From contig JAJYJJ010000002.1 of NCBI GenBank assembly GCA_021789595.1, forward strand, positions 62,001-126,000: DNA of 64,000 nucleotides, in the 5' to 3' direction. The number at the start of each line of letters is the position of its first letter. Positions within the stretch are counted from its first letter, which is position 1. Position numbers and translations under genes: made by a program. The DNA comes from Nitrospirota bacterium. GTDB lineage: Bacteria > Nitrospirota > Thermodesulfovibrionia > UBA6902 > JAJYJJ01. Below are positions 16,703-40,695 of the stretch, one piece after another. Under the pieces are notes generated by a model. That model saw only the letters and a list, made by a program, of their open reading frames with translations. It did not search any database and was not told the DNA's origin.

Positions 16703-16735
16703 CATAACCCTTACATAACCCTTACCTAACCCTTG
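16703..16735. repeat. Three 11-bp direct repeats upstream of the DUF502-glmU-glmS operon
   Basis: CATAACCCTTA occurs twice in tandem, followed by CCTAACCCTTG. The third copy runs into the predicted -35 of the next promoter. The 11-base period equals one helical turn and resembles tandem sites for OmpR/PhoB-type response regulators (for example TTAACA-like hexamers every 11 bases). Confidence 0.6.
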
Positions 16736-16768: not shown

Positions 16769-17386
16769 ATGGCTTATTCCCTGAGGACCACCTTTAAGCG
16801 TAAATTCATAGCAGGTCTCTTTGTGTCCATCCCTGCTATAATCACACTCCTTGTGATAATGTGGTTTTTCCGGTTTGTTGATGGTCTGCTCGGGCCTTTC
16901 TATGACAGGCTCCTCGGCGAACATACAACCGGGCTTGGTTTTATATCTGCCATTATACTTATATTTCTTATAGGCATTATATCCACAAATGTCTTTGGCA
17001 AAAAGATACTCGAACTTGCTGACAGGCTCTTTCTCAGGATACCTGTGTTTAAAGGGATATATACAGCGGCAAAACAGCTCGTTGATGCATTCTCCCCTGA
17101 GAACAAGACTTCATTCAAGAGGTTTGTCATTGTCGAATACCCCAGAGCTGGCTGCTTTGCATTCGGTTTTCTTACAAAGGAGTGCTCCATACGCACTGAT
17201 ACAGAGGAAAATGAAAAATGTTACAGGGTTGTCTACATCCCAACAAACAACCTCTATCTTGGCGAGATAATACTCTTTAAGAAGGATGATGTCCTTTATA
17301 CGGATCTGAGCATACAGGATGGGATAAAGATAATCCTATCAGGCGGCATTGCAACGCCGTCACACATGAAAGAGACAAGGCAATGA
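16769..17386 (+). CDS. DUF502 family membrane protein
   Basis: 205-residue protein with two membrane segments (about residues 12-36 and 55-77), separated by a short periplasmic loop, and a soluble C-terminal part. It matches the DUF502 family by its layout and by the LRIPVFKGIYTAAKQLVDAF segment and the PTNNLYLGEI segment. Plant members are known as COV proteins, but the bacterial function is not established. It overlaps glmU by four bases (ATGA), so it is co-expressed with UDP-GlcNAc synthesis genes, which may hint at an envelope role. The start ATG has no Shine-Dalgarno sequence and follows a close promoter. Confidence 0.85.
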   Translation: MAYSLRTTFKRKFIAGLFVSIPAIITLLVIMWFFRFVDGLLGPFYDRLLGEHTTGLGFISAIILIFLIGIISTNVFGKKILELADRLFLRIPVFKGIYTAAKQLVDAFSPENKTSFKRFVIVEYPRAGCFAFGFLTKECSIRTDTEENEKCYRVVYIPTNNLYLGEIILFKKDDVLYTDLSIQDGIKIILSGGIATPSHMKETRQ

Positions 17387-18801
17387 AGGTCACTGGTATT
17401 GTCCTTGCTGCCGGGGTTGGAAAGAGGATGAACTCAGCCTTTCCAAAGGTTCTGCATAAAATACTTGGAAGGCCGATGATAAGCTATCCTGTAGATGCAC
17501 TCAAGGCAGTCCATCCTGAAAGGATCGTGATTGTTGCCGGCAAATGGATGGATGAGATAAAGAAGGCACTGAAGGATGACGCTATAACCTATGCCATACA
17601 GAAAAAACCCATGGGCACAGCAGATGCCCTTTTAAAGGCAAAAAGGTATCTCGGTGATCTCGATGGAACCATCCTCCTCTGCAATGCAGATACGCCTTTA
17701 ATAACCCATTATACCTTGAAGAAATTTCTCAACCATCACAGGGTTAAGAGAAACACTCTTTCCTTTATATCCTTTAATACTGATTCGCCGTCTCAGTATG
17801 GAAGGGTTATAAGAGACGAAAGCGGCAGGGTATGCGGCATAGTAGAGGACAAGGACGCAACAAAAAGGCAGAAGGAGATAAATGAGGTAAACAGCGGTAT
17901 ATATGCCATGGAGGCAGAGGCATTAAGCTGTATCAAGAAGATACAGCCAAGCCTGGTATCAGGTGAATACTATCTGACAGACATGGTAGAAATCATCTAT
18001 AGGGAAAATGGGAAGGTTGGAACATATCCTATAAAAGACAGCATCGAGGCCCAGGGGATAAATACAAGGGCTGACCTCTCAAGAGCGATTGACATGATGA
18101 GGGCAAGGATCATATCTAAATGGATGGATGAAGGCGTCACCTTCATAGATGCAGGAAGGGTATTTGTAGAGCCAGCGGTCTTGATTGGAAGAGACACGAT
18201 AATCTATCCCAATGTATACTTAGAGGGTAATACTGCCATTGGACAGGGATGCACCATTTATCCAAATGTAAGGATTATAGACAGCAGCATCGGCGATGAT
18301 GCTGTTATAAAAGACTCAACCCTCATAGAGGAAAGCAGGATCGAAGGTTCATCAAGTATTGGCCCATTCGCCCACATCAGGCCCAGAAGCATTATTGGAA
18401 GGGGAGCAAAGATAGGAAACTTTGTGGAGGTAAAGAAATCCACTATAGGCAGTGGCTCAAAGGCAATGCACCTGAGCTACCTTGGCGATGCCTCCATAGG
18501 GGATGGCGTAAATATAGGGGCAGGCGCTATTACATGTAATTATGACGGCAGGATGAAACATAAGACCGTTATTGAGGATATGGTCTTTATAGGGAGCGAC
18601 TCACAGCTCGTTGCACCTGTCAGGGTTGGAAAGGGTGCATATATTGCTGCAGGTTCAACCATTACAAGGGATGTTCCAGCAGGATCGCTTGCCATAAGCA
18701 GGGCAGAACAGAGACATATAGAGAAATGGGCGCTCAGGAAAAAAACAGAACACAGAAAACAAAAAACAGAAAACAAAAAACAGAAAACAAAAAACAGATA
18801 A
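17383..18801 (+). CDS. glmU: GlmU, bifunctional UDP-GlcNAc synthesis enzyme
   Basis: Acetylates glucosamine-1-phosphate and then uridylates it to give UDP-GlcNAc for peptidoglycan and LPS. The N-terminal pyrophosphorylase domain begins VLAAGVGKRMNSAFPKVLH, with the nucleotide-binding GxGxRM-type loop. QKKPMGTADAL and NADTPLI follow. From about residue 250 a left-handed beta-helix with hexapeptide repeats forms the acetyltransferase, and the GAGAITCNYDGRMKHKT segment is a GlmU signature. The last ~20 residues (Lys/Gln/Asn/Thr-rich) are encoded by a 14-base tandem repeat and look like an extension of the normal ~455-residue protein. Confidence 0.95.
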   Translation: MKVTGIVLAAGVGKRMNSAFPKVLHKILGRPMISYPVDALKAVHPERIVIVAGKWMDEIKKALKDDAITYAIQKKPMGTADALLKAKRYLGDLDGTILLCNADTPLITHYTLKKFLNHHRVKRNTLSFISFNTDSPSQYGRVIRDESGRVCGIVEDKDATKRQKEINEVNSGIYAMEAEALSCIKKIQPSLVSGEYYLTDMVEIIYRENGKVGTYPIKDSIEAQGINTRADLSRAIDMMRARIISKWMDEGVTFIDAGRVFVEPAVLIGRDTIIYPNVYLEGNTAIGQGCTIYPNVRIIDSSIGDDAVIKDSTLIEESRIEGSSSIGPFAHIRPRSIIGRGAKIGNFVEVKKSTIGSGSKAMHLSYLGDASIGDGVNIGAGAITCNYDGRMKHKTVIEDMVFIGSDSQLVAPVRVGKGAYIAAGSTITRDVPAGSLAISRAEQRHIEKWALRKKTEHRKQKTENKKQKTKNR

Positions 18802-18844
18802 TAAAATCGAAGCTCTGGGCTCTGTTATCTGTGCTCTGTGTTCT
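18747..18844. repeat. 7/14-base tandem array with inverted partner at the glmU 3' end
   Basis: The unit ACAGAAAACAAAAA is repeated three times (18752-18793) plus a partial copy, inside the last codons of glmU. After the stop codon a 7-base-period, opposite-sense array follows (GCTCTGG, GCTCTGT, TATCTGT, GCTCTGT, about 18812-18839). Perfect inverted repeats connect the halves: AGAACACAGA (18747-18756) with 18835-18844, and ACAGATAA (18794-18801, containing the stop) with 18825-18832. The RNA could fold into a long imperfect stem just before glmS. Confidence 0.75.
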
Positions 18845-18862: not shown

Positions 18863-20689
18863 ATGTGTGGAATAATCGGTTATATAGGCCGGAACAATGC
18901 AATACCCCTTCTCATTGAGGGATTGAAACGGCTTGAATACCGCGGCTATGACTCAGCAGGCATTGCCTTTGTTAAAGACGGAAAGATAGAGGTCAGGCGA
19001 TGCACAGGAAAGATAAGGGATCTGGAGGCTGAGATACAGGGAGAGCTCATTAACACAAAAATCGGGATAGGCCATACCCGATGGGCAACACACGGCAGGC
19101 CGTCAGAGGAGAATGCCCACCCGCACAGGGCAGACGGTATCGTGGTCGTGCATAATGGAATAATAGAGAACTATCTACCGTTGAAGGAGCGGCTGAAAAG
19201 GGAAGGACATACATTCAGATCCGATACAGATACAGAGGTTATATGCCACCTTATCAATAGCTATACAAAGAAGGGGATGGAATTAGAAGAGGCTGTAAGG
19301 GCAGTATTGAAGGAGATACGCGGGGCATATGCCCTCGGTATACTGAGCGAGGATGAGCCTGACAAGGTTATTGCCGTCAGGAAGGACAGCCCTCTTGTGC
19401 TCGGCCTTGGCGATGGTGAATTCTTCCTCGCCTCGGATATACCAGCCTTTCTCAGCTCCACGAGGGATACGATTATTCTCGGCAATGCTGAGATGGCTGT
19501 CCTCACAGGGGATGGTATATTTCTTAAAGACTTTGATGGAAATCCAATAGAAAGGGCTGTTGAGACCATCTCATGGAACCCTGCTATGGCAGAAAGGGGC
19601 GGCTATAAACACTTCATGTTAAAGGAGATATACGAGCAACCAAGGGCAATAATGGATACATTAAGAGGAAGGTTCTCACTTGAATCAGGTGAGGTGAATA
19701 TAGAGGAGTTCGGCATAGGAGAGGAAATACTGAGGAATACCGAAAAGGTCTTTATTGTTGCATGCGGCACATCCTGGCATGCTGCCCTGTGCGGCAAAAA
19801 CATGATAGAGGGCATAGCAAGGCTTCAGGCAGAGGTGGACATCGCCTCTGAGTTCCGCTACAGGCAGCCCATAATCCGCGATAATACCCTGTTTATTGCA
19901 ATAACCCAGTCAGGCGAGACAGCAGACACAATTGCTGCCCAGAGAGAGGCAAAGAGGCTTGGAGCAAAGGTCTTGAGCATATGCAATGTCGTTGGAAGCA
20001 CATCCTCGAGGGAGGCAGATGGTGTATTCTATACGCATTCAGGTCTAGAGATAGGCGTTGCATCCACAAAGGCGTTTGTATCACAGCTCGTTGCCCTTTA
20101 TCTTATTGCCATAGCCCTCGGCAGGTATAGGAATAATATTGATGCAGATATGGCCAGGAGCCTGCTTACAGATCTCATGGAGATACCTGAGAAGGTCGAA
20201 TGGCTGCTTGAGATGGACAATACTTACACAAACATTGCAAGGGAGCTGTTTAAGGCCAGGGATTTTCTATACATAGGCAGGGGTATAAACTATCCCATTG
20301 CGCTTGAGGGCGCCTTAAAGCTGAAGGAGATCTCATACATCCATGCAGAAGGCTATCCGGCAGGAGAGATGAAACACGGCCCTATAGCCCTGATTGACGA
20401 GGAGATACCTGTTGTTGTTATAGCGCCAAGGGACAATGTATACGAAAAGATATTGTCTAATATTGAAGAGGTAAAGAGCAGGGGTGGAAGGGTTATAGCC
20501 CTTGCAAACACAGGGGATCCGATAAAGGATAGGACACCCTTTGCTATTTTTGTCCCGGAATCCAACCACTATTTGTCTCCGATCCTCTTTACCATACCGC
20601 TGCAACTCCTTGCCTATCACATGGCTGTCTTAAGGGGATGCGATGTTGATCAGCCGAGAAATCTTGCAAAGAGTGTAACAGTAGAATAG
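18863..20689 (+). CDS. glmS: GlmS, glutamine-fructose-6-phosphate aminotransferase
   Basis: Makes glucosamine-6-phosphate from fructose-6-phosphate and glutamine, the first step toward UDP-GlcNAc. The N-terminal class II glutaminase starts MCGIIGYIG, leaving Cys1 as nucleophile. GHTRWATHGRPSEENAHPH follows. Two SIS domains form the isomerase, with the CGTSWHAAL and SQSGETADT-type (TQSGETADT) phosphosugar loops. It ends with LAKSVTVE, the usual GlmS C-terminus. The 608-residue length is standard. GGAAGG lies eight bases before the ATG. The 61-base gap after glmU holds the repeat array, and I see no glmS ribozyme there. Confidence 0.97.
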   Translation: MCGIIGYIGRNNAIPLLIEGLKRLEYRGYDSAGIAFVKDGKIEVRRCTGKIRDLEAEIQGELINTKIGIGHTRWATHGRPSEENAHPHRADGIVVVHNGIIENYLPLKERLKREGHTFRSDTDTEVICHLINSYTKKGMELEEAVRAVLKEIRGAYALGILSEDEPDKVIAVRKDSPLVLGLGDGEFFLASDIPAFLSSTRDTIILGNAEMAVLTGDGIFLKDFDGNPIERAVETISWNPAMAERGGYKHFMLKEIYEQPRAIMDTLRGRFSLESGEVNIEEFGIGEEILRNTEKVFIVACGTSWHAALCGKNMIEGIARLQAEVDIASEFRYRQPIIRDNTLFIAITQSGETADTIAAQREAKRLGAKVLSICNVVGSTSSREADGVFYTHSGLEIGVASTKAFVSQLVALYLIAIALGRYRNNIDADMARSLLTDLMEIPEKVEWLLEMDNTYTNIARELFKARDFLYIGRGINYPIALEGALKLKEISYIHAEGYPAGEMKHGPIALIDEEIPVVVIAPRDNVYEKILSNIEEVKSRGGRVIALANTGDPIKDRTPFAIFVPESNHYLSPILFTIPLQLLAYHMAVLRGCDVDQPRNLAKSVTVE

Positions 20690-20719: not shown

Positions 20720-22834
20720 ATGATAATAAAAGACATGTTAAAGGCATTGAATCCACAACAGCAAGAGGCCCTGCTGCACACTGATGGTCCAGTTTTAGTG
20801 CTTGCAGGGGCTGGCAGCGGGAAGACAAGGGTAATAACTTACAGATTTGCCTATCTGGCAAAAAAGTTAGACGTCCCACCCTCCTGTATCCTTGCCATGA
20901 CCTTTACCAACAAGGCGGCTGATGAGATGAGGCAGAGGATAGAGGCACTCATCGGCAAATCCCTTAAGAGGCTCTGGATAGGGACATTTCATGCCACCTG
21001 CTCCAGGATCCTGAGGCATGAGATAGGGGCAATTGGTTTTAGGAGCAATTTTGCAATCTATGACGAAGCTGACCAGGGCAACCTCCTTCGTTCAATACTC
21101 AAGGATTTTAAGATCCATGAGGCACTCTACAAGAACATTGCAGCAAGGATTAGCACTCTCAAGGCGTCCCTTATTGGTCCTGAGGAGCTTCTCTCAAGCG
21201 GAGATGGCTTTGGCTTTGACGAGAAGCTTGCAAAGATATATCTGAGGTATCAGGACGAGCTCAGGAGGAATAATGCCCTTGATTTTGACGACCTCATTAT
21301 GCACAGCGTAAGGCTTTTTGAAAAGCACCCCCACATAGCAAAGAAATACCAGAAGGATTTTACACATATCATGGTAGATGAATTTCAGGATACAAACACA
21401 GCCCAGTACAAACTGGCAAAACTCCTTGCAGCAAGACACAGAAACATATGTGCTGTCGGAGACGACGACCAGAGCATATATAAGTTCAGGGGCGCAAACC
21501 TGAAGAACATACTTGAGTTCGAAAAAGACTTCCCTGATGCAAAGGTAGTAAAGCTTGAGCAGAACTATCGTTCAACCCAGAATATACTTGACGCTGCCTG
21601 GACACTTATATCAAAGAACCCTGAGCGTAAAGCAAAGAAGCTGTGGACGGACAAGGGCTGCGGCGAGAGAATACAGTTCTGCTGCACTCAGACCGAAGAG
21701 GAAGAGGCAAGGTATATCGCCAAGTCCATCAAAGAGATATATCTCAAAGGCAAGTATTCTTACAGCGACTTTGCAGTCCTTTACAGGGTTAACCAGCAGT
21801 CCAGGGCTATAGAAGAGGCCATGAGGCAGGAGAGACTGCCTTACCATATAATTGGAGGGGTTGGTTTCTACAGCAGAAGGGAGATAAAGGATATACTCGC
21901 TTATCTGAGGGTTATAGCTAATTCAGGCGATTCTATAAGCCTCAAGAGGATTATAAACTGTCCTCCGAGGGGTATAGGAGAGACAACCATAGTAAGGGTA
22001 GAACAAGAGGCAAAGCGTAGAGATATAAGTCTGTTTGAGGCAATGAAGGCTATGGCAAAGGGCGATGTCCTTGCCACAGGCAGGAAGGAAAGGCTGAAAG
22101 ACTTTGTTGGTATGCTCAATTCTCTGCTGTCCATCTCAGAGAGGTTAAAGAAGACAGACCTCATTATAGAGGAGATATTGAGGAAAACAGGTTATATAAA
22201 TAACATAGAGAAGGAGCGGCTTGAAAACCTGAATGAGCTTATTGCCGCAGCAAAGGGAACAGACCTTGGTGAATTCCTGGACAGGACATCTCTCTTTACA
22301 GGCATGGATGAGACGCATAAAAATGATTCTATTGCCCTTATGACACTACACTGTGCAAAGGGTCTTGAATTCCCTGTAGTCTTCATCTCCGGCACAGAAG
22401 AGGGACTTATCCCCCATGTCCGTTCTGTGGAAGATCATGAGGAGCTTCAGGAGGAAAGAAGGCTCCTGTATGTTGGTATGACAAGGGCAAAGGACATGCT
22501 CGTGTTCACAAGTGCAAAAAAGAGAAGGTTCTATGCCAATGTCCAGGAGCAAGAGCCATCACGGTTTATAAAGGAGATACCTGAAAGTCTGTGCTGCAGG
22601 ATAGACAGGGCTATGAAGATACCAAGGCTTTCCACAGCAAAGGTCAAATGTCCAAGCATAGGGCCTTTCTCCATCGGGACAAGGGTAAAACACCCCAAGT
22701 GGGGTATCGGTGTTATCAGGGAATACTCTGGTAAGGATGATGAATTGAAGGTTATGGTAAATTTCCCTGATGTCGGCGCAAAGAAACTCGCCCTTAAATT
22801 CGCCAACCTGGAAAAACTTCAGGGGCAAGGATGA
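20720..22834 (+). CDS. pcrA: UvrD/PcrA/Rep-type superfamily 1 DNA helicase
   Basis: 3'-5' SF1A helicase for nucleotide excision repair, replication restart or plasmid replication. Motif I is GAGSGKTRVI near residue 33, motif II is VDEFQDTN, the QNYRSTQNIL segment follows, and motif VI is EERRLLYVGMTRAKD. The C-terminal ~50 residues (GTRVKHPKWGIGVIREYSGK) form the Tudor-like domain that binds RNA polymerase in PcrA/UvrD, which favours PcrA/UvrD over Rep. The 704 residues are normal. It overlaps gatC by four bases. A TATAAA box lies six bases before the ATG and no ribosome-binding site is visible. Confidence 0.9.
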   Translation: MIIKDMLKALNPQQQEALLHTDGPVLVLAGAGSGKTRVITYRFAYLAKKLDVPPSCILAMTFTNKAADEMRQRIEALIGKSLKRLWIGTFHATCSRILRHEIGAIGFRSNFAIYDEADQGNLLRSILKDFKIHEALYKNIAARISTLKASLIGPEELLSSGDGFGFDEKLAKIYLRYQDELRRNNALDFDDLIMHSVRLFEKHPHIAKKYQKDFTHIMVDEFQDTNTAQYKLAKLLAARHRNICAVGDDDQSIYKFRGANLKNILEFEKDFPDAKVVKLEQNYRSTQNILDAAWTLISKNPERKAKKLWTDKGCGERIQFCCTQTEEEEARYIAKSIKEIYLKGKYSYSDFAVLYRVNQQSRAIEEAMRQERLPYHIIGGVGFYSRREIKDILAYLRVIANSGDSISLKRIINCPPRGIGETTIVRVEQEAKRRDISLFEAMKAMAKGDVLATGRKERLKDFVGMLNSLLSISERLKKTDLIIEEILRKTGYINNIEKERLENLNELIAAAKGTDLGEFLDRTSLFTGMDETHKNDSIALMTLHCAKGLEFPVVFISGTEEGLIPHVRSVEDHEELQEERRLLYVGMTRAKDMLVFTSAKKRRFYANVQEQEPSRFIKEIPESLCCRIDRAMKIPRLSTAKVKCPSIGPFSIGTRVKHPKWGIGVIREYSGKDDELKVMVNFPDVGAKKLALKFANLEKLQGQG

Positions 22835-35079: not shown

Positions 35080-36402
<1,323 letters not shown>

Positions 36403-40320: not shown

Positions 40321-40322
40321 GA

Positions 40323-40415
40323 AGGCGTGAGGCGAAAGGCAGAAGGCGTGAATAATAAGAGAATAGAGGTAAAAAGCAAGATTTTACTTTTTACTTTTTA
40401 CTTTTTACTTCTTAC
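40323..40415. repeat. Two 7-base tandem arrays at the 5' end of a small lipoprotein gene
   Basis: The first array is AGGCGTG, AGGCGAA, AGGCAGA, AGGCGTG (40323-40350). The second is ATTTTAC, TTTTTAC three times, TTCTTAC (40381-40415). Between them, GTAAAAAG (40369-40376) is the exact complement of CTTTTTAC in the second array, so a hairpin can form. The second array encodes the hydrophobic core of the predicted signal peptide. Because seven is not a multiple of three, loss or gain of a unit would change the frame. Confidence 0.8.
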
Positions 40416-40695
40416 TTATTTAATTATCCTTGTCTCAGCATGTGCTGTTTCTGCTGTGGATTCAAAGAATGATATGGAGATGACATTAACAGGCACAATA
40501 AGGCTTGTTGGGAATGTGCCGTTTACGCATCTTGTCCTTACAACAGACGACGGCAGGGACTACCTTATAAAAGGGAGATTTGAGAAGGAATTGAGGAGGT
40601 TTCAATATCAAAGGGTAGAGATAAAGGGAGAGAAACTGCCGGCATCAGGGGAGTTCAAATATTGTATAGATGTTAAGGAATATAAGGTATTATAG
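40327..40695 (+). CDS. Small lipoprotein-like protein, repeat-encoded signal peptide
   Basis: Up to 122 residues. The mature part (about residues 45-122) reads as a small beta-rich domain (TLTGTIRLVGNVPFTHLVLT, then DDGRDYLIKGRFEKELRRF and an EFKYCIDVKEYKVL end), consistent with an OB-like fold. The N-terminus has a basic stretch and a hydrophobic run (LLFTFYFLLLTYLIILVSAC) with a lipobox-like VSAC. The hydrophobic run is largely encoded by 7-base repeats. The start is uncertain: GTG at 40327 or 40348 are candidates and none has a convincing ribosome-binding site. It follows the peptidase gene closely and overlaps the end of recR convergently by six bases. Family not recognised. Confidence 0.55.
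   Translation: MRRKAEGVNNKRIEVKSKILLFTFYFLLLTYLIILVSACAVSAVDSKNDMEMTLTGTIRLVGNVPFTHLVLTTDDGRDYLIKGRFEKELRRFQYQRVEIKGEKLPASGEFKYCIDVKEYKVL

Follow-up and report, generated by a model that had tools for sequence, protein, structure and literature searches.

The window analysed here, a stretch of 64,000 nucleotides from a Nitrospirota genome, contains glmU (17383-18801, plus strand) followed by glmS (18863-20689, plus strand); the nearest GlmU sequences were from Nitrospirota (Thermodesulfovibrionia), with an identity of 57% at best. The stop codon of glmU (TAA, 18799-18801) and its last ~20 codons (KTEHRKQKTENKKQKTKNR and the stop) are formed by a purine-rich heptamer array (18742-18806, plus strand; unit AAAACAG, 14-bp doublet AAAACAAAAAACAG), which was detected by TRF (score 102) and by autocorrelation and which spans the end of the gene with a period of 7/14 bp. 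Five bases further, a pyrimidine-rich array in the opposite sense (18812-18844, minus strand; unit GCTCTGT, 4.7 degenerate copies, TRF score 38) ends 19 nt before the ATG of glmS at 18863. The inverted 7-base arrays that the original prediction had described across the glmU stop codon are thus present. A perfect 10-bp inverted repeat links their outer ends (left arm AGAACACAGA, 18747-18756, and right arm TCTGTGTTCT, 18835-18844, both read on the plus strand), and an inner 8-bp inverted repeat pairs ACAGATAA at 18794 with TTATCTGT at 18825. Upstream, between serS and the gene preceding glmU, lies a tandem repeat of another period (16703-16734; 2.9 copies of the 11-bp unit CATAACCCTTA).

Two further islands had been proposed in the window, and both were recovered. 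Within tgt (35080-36366, minus strand), a purine-rich 8-bp array (TGGAGTGC, 35660-35690, plus strand) is accompanied by an 8-bp array in the opposite sense (TCCAATGC, 35723-35768, minus strand), both found by TRF and autocorrelation. Compared with solved Tgt, this island encodes an insert of ~26 residues (query residues 206-231), with disorder predicted at residues 209-233. The lipoprotein island comprises an opposite-sense array of unit TTTTACT (40377-40422, minus strand) where the predicted coding region begins; the stretch opposed to it is weaker, a degenerate purine-rich run (GGCGTGA/GGCGAAA/GGCAGAA, about 40321-40352, plus strand) read by eye and lying under the calling threshold. In total, two islands at period 7 and two at period 8 were called in the window, against none in first-order simulated sequence.

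A genome-wide scan (2.22 Mb of readable sequence, cut-off of 15/18 matches) yielded 68 period-7 and 26 period-8 islands, whereas third-order Markov genomes gave none at period 7 and 0-2 at period 8. After merging of overlaps, 80 arrays with 7- or 8-bp units remained, grouped in 63 islands, so that the genome holds many further islands of the kind seen at glmU. As had been anticipated, a single design recurs throughout, namely tandem heptamers or octamers often with an opposite-sense partner within ~100 bp, at frequencies far above shuffled controls, and a chance origin of the class is excluded. In the same scan, loci from Bacilli contained 1 array in 821 kb and those from other environmental phyla 41 per Mb; the 69 per Mb obtained for Nitrospirota loci is biased, since every one of these surrounds glmU. 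Several heptamer arrays also lie between tRNA-like sequences on a contig of 3.8 kb of the same genome (C24:287-603).

The majority of the arrays are within protein-coding genes, mostly essential ones: 66 of the 80 fell in ORFs, the same as the 82% given by random placement, and 54 of the 80 were situated deep in an ORF of 200 codons or more, with 100 nt or more to either end, tgt, prmC, aroA and leuS being among the genes concerned. The placement of a few arrays close to ORF starts may reflect start sites wrongly assigned by our home-made and crude gene caller. Arrays inside genes are in frame and leave the reading frame unbroken. Besides the gap of ~26 residues in Tgt, alignments to solved structures displayed gaps at the arrays of AroA (6 residues at each of two sites) and PrmC (4 residues).

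The same positions were compared across the order (47 genomes, mostly drafts, of which 28 were readable per site) for four sites extracted by regular expressions, those in prmC and aroA having been picked from the array list ahead of any look at relatives. Arrays were called at the glmU-glmS junction in 15 of 28 genomes, in the tgt loop in 12, in the prmC loop in 12 and at aroA site 1 in 14, occupancies that are lower bounds because fixed detection thresholds miss degenerate arrays. Relative to flanking DNA, array density was 327-fold at glmU-glmS, 66-fold at tgt, 39-fold at prmC and 48-fold at aroA site 1; these ratios measure recurrence and are not probabilities, since the sites were picked for arrays of the window genome and the relatives are not mutually independent. 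The control gene pyrH had no site of this kind, and a second site in aroA carried an array just in the window genome and in one relative (G009). At all four sites the unit usually changed from genome to genome; at aroA site 1, the units were CAGCCAT, CAGAACA, CAGGAGT, CAGCTCT, CAGAAGT, CAGGGGT and others. The idea that design is conserved without conservation of sequence was borne out, and most clearly at such orthologous sites. When empty, the aroA loop has 13-15 codons and its commonest occupied length is 22; the 7 residues added to the 15-residue empty loop correspond to three heptamers.

Within one family (f5), the arrays kept their register with respect to the conserved flank, with scores of 4.57 at aroA and 4.21 at prmC, whereas 2000 random-phase trials reached at most 3.79. 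C and A hardly vary in these arrays, G is mostly kept at aroA, and the remaining positions change together; other families have other registers. At the tgt loop, CCCCC..GGGGG or GTAGGGGCG palindromes occur as alternatives to arrays, and the inserts of species within a single genus (g23) are entirely unlike one another: 8-mers, 7-mers, CCCCC palindromes or GTAGGGG palindromes. The CCCCC..GGGGG palindromes, which encode PPxPPLxKGG-like peptides, either take up protein loops in which arrays are also found or lie next to arrays; they were observed in the tgt loop of six loci (L253, L259, L260, L262, L263 and L266) and, in the window genome, at C11:112079, C18:22766 and C23:7548. Some tgt insert types are common to species across genera g23 and g24 (L250/L251/L256, L255/L257 and L252/L261) while congeners differ, and an exchange of tgt alleles is possible.

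The units had been thought unrelated between islands, each locus having its own. This holds insofar as many differing units exist, with 41 different canonical 7-mers in 56 arrays, but they are drawn from a common vocabulary. Comparison of 44 separate 7-mer islands gave 52 island pairs with units within one mismatch, against 16.6 expected when letters were shuffled within units (maximum of 29 in 200 shuffles); near-identical units at unrelated loci are therefore about three times as frequent as composition predicts, and units are not private to their locus. On the purine strand, AGT, GTC, TCA and CAG are enriched. Of 150 genomes belonging to the class, 56 contained triplets of AGTCAGA, the reversed pattern being nearly absent, and the number of pattern matches ranged from 2 to 79 within one genus, the maximum occurring in one relative. 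Unit pairs within one mismatch amounted to 18% at the same site and genus, 9% at the same site in other genera, 11% at other sites of the same genome and 6% at other sites and genera, against 2% after shuffling, a pattern that would be compatible with a mixture of descent and insertion. A G-quadruplex reading was discarded, most units being devoid of G-runs.

Opposite-sense neighbours have a strong polarity, with the purine-rich array on the left and the pyrimidine-rich one on the right (RY) in 26 cases against 1 overall (16:0 in relatives, 10:1 in the window genome). The count in the window genome applies to gaps of up to 150 bp, one YR pair being dropped as ambiguous in purine content; a limit of 200 bp with ambiguous arrays kept gives three YR pairs. 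Additionally, composites made of a purine array, a C/G-rich palindromic core and a pyrimidine array were present with 80-84% identity at four places on two contigs (C10:21599-21711 and 21862-21965; C16:64849-64970 and 69248-69345), several of them in frame within genes. One CCCC..GGGG palindromic core stands alone, without flanking arrays (C34:12958-13017). In self-comparison of the genome, most islands gave just short unit matches, and their flanks had no detectable copy elsewhere.

We consider it slightly better than an even bet that the arrays are 7/8-bp minisatellites driven by slippage, tolerated by selection at permissive sites and occasionally re-seeded by dispersed palindromic elements. 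They would sit where a change in length is tolerated, i.e. at gene junctions and in disordered surface loops of core enzymes, where slippage would add or remove whole units; in genes, the net change would be held to a multiple of three, as with three heptamers for 7 residues. An array shrunk to one or two units could mutate and re-expand, so that all units would be rewritten together, site and register being inherited by descent and the unit replaced. That inherited arrays shrink, mutate and re-expand is suggested by the register kept in family f5 and by the growth of the aroA loop by three heptamers. Occasional insertion of a dispersed hairpin-like element, with its array, C/G-rich palindromic core and second array, would re-seed the sites and could account for the shared vocabulary, the RY polarity and the palindromic repeats that replace arrays in one loop. 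Such arrays would be tolerated rather than functional, with no specific action on glmS. Of the shared generating mechanism put forward in the original prediction, slippage is a reasonable part; a copying of the two arms from each other at a hairpin is not supported, as units in arms of the same island differ by 3.0 mismatches and those of different islands by 3.1 (only 12 pairs).

Repeated insertion of mobile selfish DNA resembling Rickettsia palindromic elements at permissive sites, with slippage secondary, is a less probable alternative. At the tgt loop, some insertion or allele exchange is needed in any case, because slippage of an inherited array cannot yield the different insert classes found within genus g23. 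The array-core-array composites at no fewer than four places, the units common to several genomes and loci, and in-frame insertion like that of Rickettsia palindromic elements (PMC10969869) argue in the same direction. Conversely, the register that the aroA and prmC arrays share in one family argues for descent at these sites, neither a target duplication nor an insertion enzyme was found, and the flanks of most arrays have no detectable copies elsewhere. RAYT transposases are not likely movers of the arrays: array and RAYT counts were weakly correlated in the order (rho 0.33) and uncorrelated within genus g23, and one genome (G026) bears arrays with no Y1_Tnp match. The window genome has 8 Y1_Tnp genes, whose flanks bear a hairpin different from the arrays; unlike REP/REPIN elements, the arrays do not flank a Y1 (RAYT) gene. 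For the Y1 (RAYT-like) transposase genes at C26:7081, C12:21877 and C33:176467, an own inverted hairpin unrelated to the arrays was observed, that of the C26 gene being GGGACACATCCC upstream and GGGATGTGTCCC downstream.

One feature is not obviously accounted for by slippage alone. The CAG anchor returns every 7 nt and so passes through all codon frames, which means that protein-level selection alone cannot keep it in place. A dedicated DNA-level process that maintains heptamer arrays where they stand, in particular loops and at particular junctions of core genes, might do so, keeping register, CA(G) anchor and purine-to-pyrimidine polarity while the other positions of all units are rewritten at once, so that related species would show different versions of one array. 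We view such a process as rather unlikely.

By analogy with the proposal made for Geobacter metallireducens, paired arrays could also bind a nucleoid protein or a regulator similar to IHF/HU. Pairs of tandem 7/8-mers on opposite strands are annotated in this way in that species (PMC2700814), and the limited vocabulary and the polarity bias would agree with it. We judge this improbable here, given that the unit is freely variable at one site, that most arrays are unpaired and located within coding sequence, and that the number of AGTCAGA matches varies so widely in one genus. Still less credible is an mRNA hairpin at the glmU-glmS island controlling glmS, an effect that the earlier prediction had suggested from the position of the arrays. 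The island segment of the window does fold well (-24.3 kcal/mol, z -4.0), and in several relatives the array directly adjoins the start of glmS; in five junctions (L223, L225, L231, L237 and L238) the pyrimidine-rich array ends a few bases before it, with no evident Shine-Dalgarno sequence. However, the occupied junctions of relatives fold inconsistently (z -3.7 to +1.9) and overall not better than shuffles, their empty junctions keep an identical gene order, and the island has no terminator and no Rfam RNA match. With the relatives folding inconsistently and neither a terminator nor an Rfam family at the island, a role in glmS expression is not supported. Short repeats can mislead assembly and the genomes are mostly drafts, but chance or assembly artefact has a negligible probability in view of the 0-2 islands in simulated genomes, the near absence of arrays from Bacilli loci and the array in prmC of a single-contig genome (G014).

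Heptamer repeats and in-frame palindromic inserts, described separately so far, meet at hotspots that they share in ubiquitous enzymes. The orthologous sites constitute a natural experiment on the rewriting of minisatellite units and on the tolerance of proteins to new disordered segments. For environmental genomes, C-terminal tails and loops such as KQKTENKKQKTKNR or SQKSEVRSQ are repeat-derived and not necessarily functional motifs.

An excess of heptamers in many bacteria is cited by both PMC4692102 and PMC4679880, and the paired opposite-strand design is already known, contrary to the original prediction that no such family had been described, since it was published for Geobacter metallireducens (PMC2700814) and Xanthomonas (PMC4692102). 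Recurrence at the same positions with replacement of the unit was not found described in the open-licence literature, which is no proof of novelty. In G. metallireducens, the 'global regulator binding sites' of classes 1-3, for which IHF/HU binding has only been proposed (Aklujkar 2009, PMC2700814), consist as here of 3-5 tandem hepta- or octanucleotides in opposite-strand pairs at variable distance, with several unit classes per genome; the class 3 unit MTYCTGA (PMC2700814) matches the CTTCTGA arrays of the window genome. Many arrays here are unpaired, and those of Geobacter form families of fixed sequence, no replacement of units at one site having been found reported there (PMC2700814).

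The GGGAATC repeats of Xanthomonas are likewise heptamer arrays, with 70-75 inverted pairs often beside or overlapping stop codons (Rehm 2015, PMC4692102). Unlike the present arrays, these and the GGGGA(C/T)T repeats of Nostoc have one G-rich unit type per genome, are mainly intergenic and keep a constant unit across species (PMC4692102). The heptanucleotide STRR of cyanobacteria and TAACTGA of Beggiatoaceae resemble our arrays as dispersed tandem heptamers with a patchy occurrence among species (PMC4679880), and at least three head-to-tail 7-bp copies were indeed found dispersed in the window genome; both have a single or few fixed units, a restriction on which STRR/LSSR are defined and which the variety of units seen here does not obey, and TAACTGA lies mostly upstream of start codons and is rarely inverted (PMC4679880).

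Rickettsia palindromic elements share with the arrays the placement of short hairpin-like DNA in frame within protein genes, those of metabolism in their case (PMC10969869). They differ in forming sequence families of ~150 bp without tandem heptamers of changing unit (PMC10969869), and one such family was not recovered here, the composite elements excepted. The tandem repeats of Borgs are also fast-evolving and add disordered segments to proteins (PMC9879509). In their ORFs, however, repeats are perfect with units divisible by three (PMC9879509), whereas units here are of 7 or 8 bp and the frame is kept via copy number.
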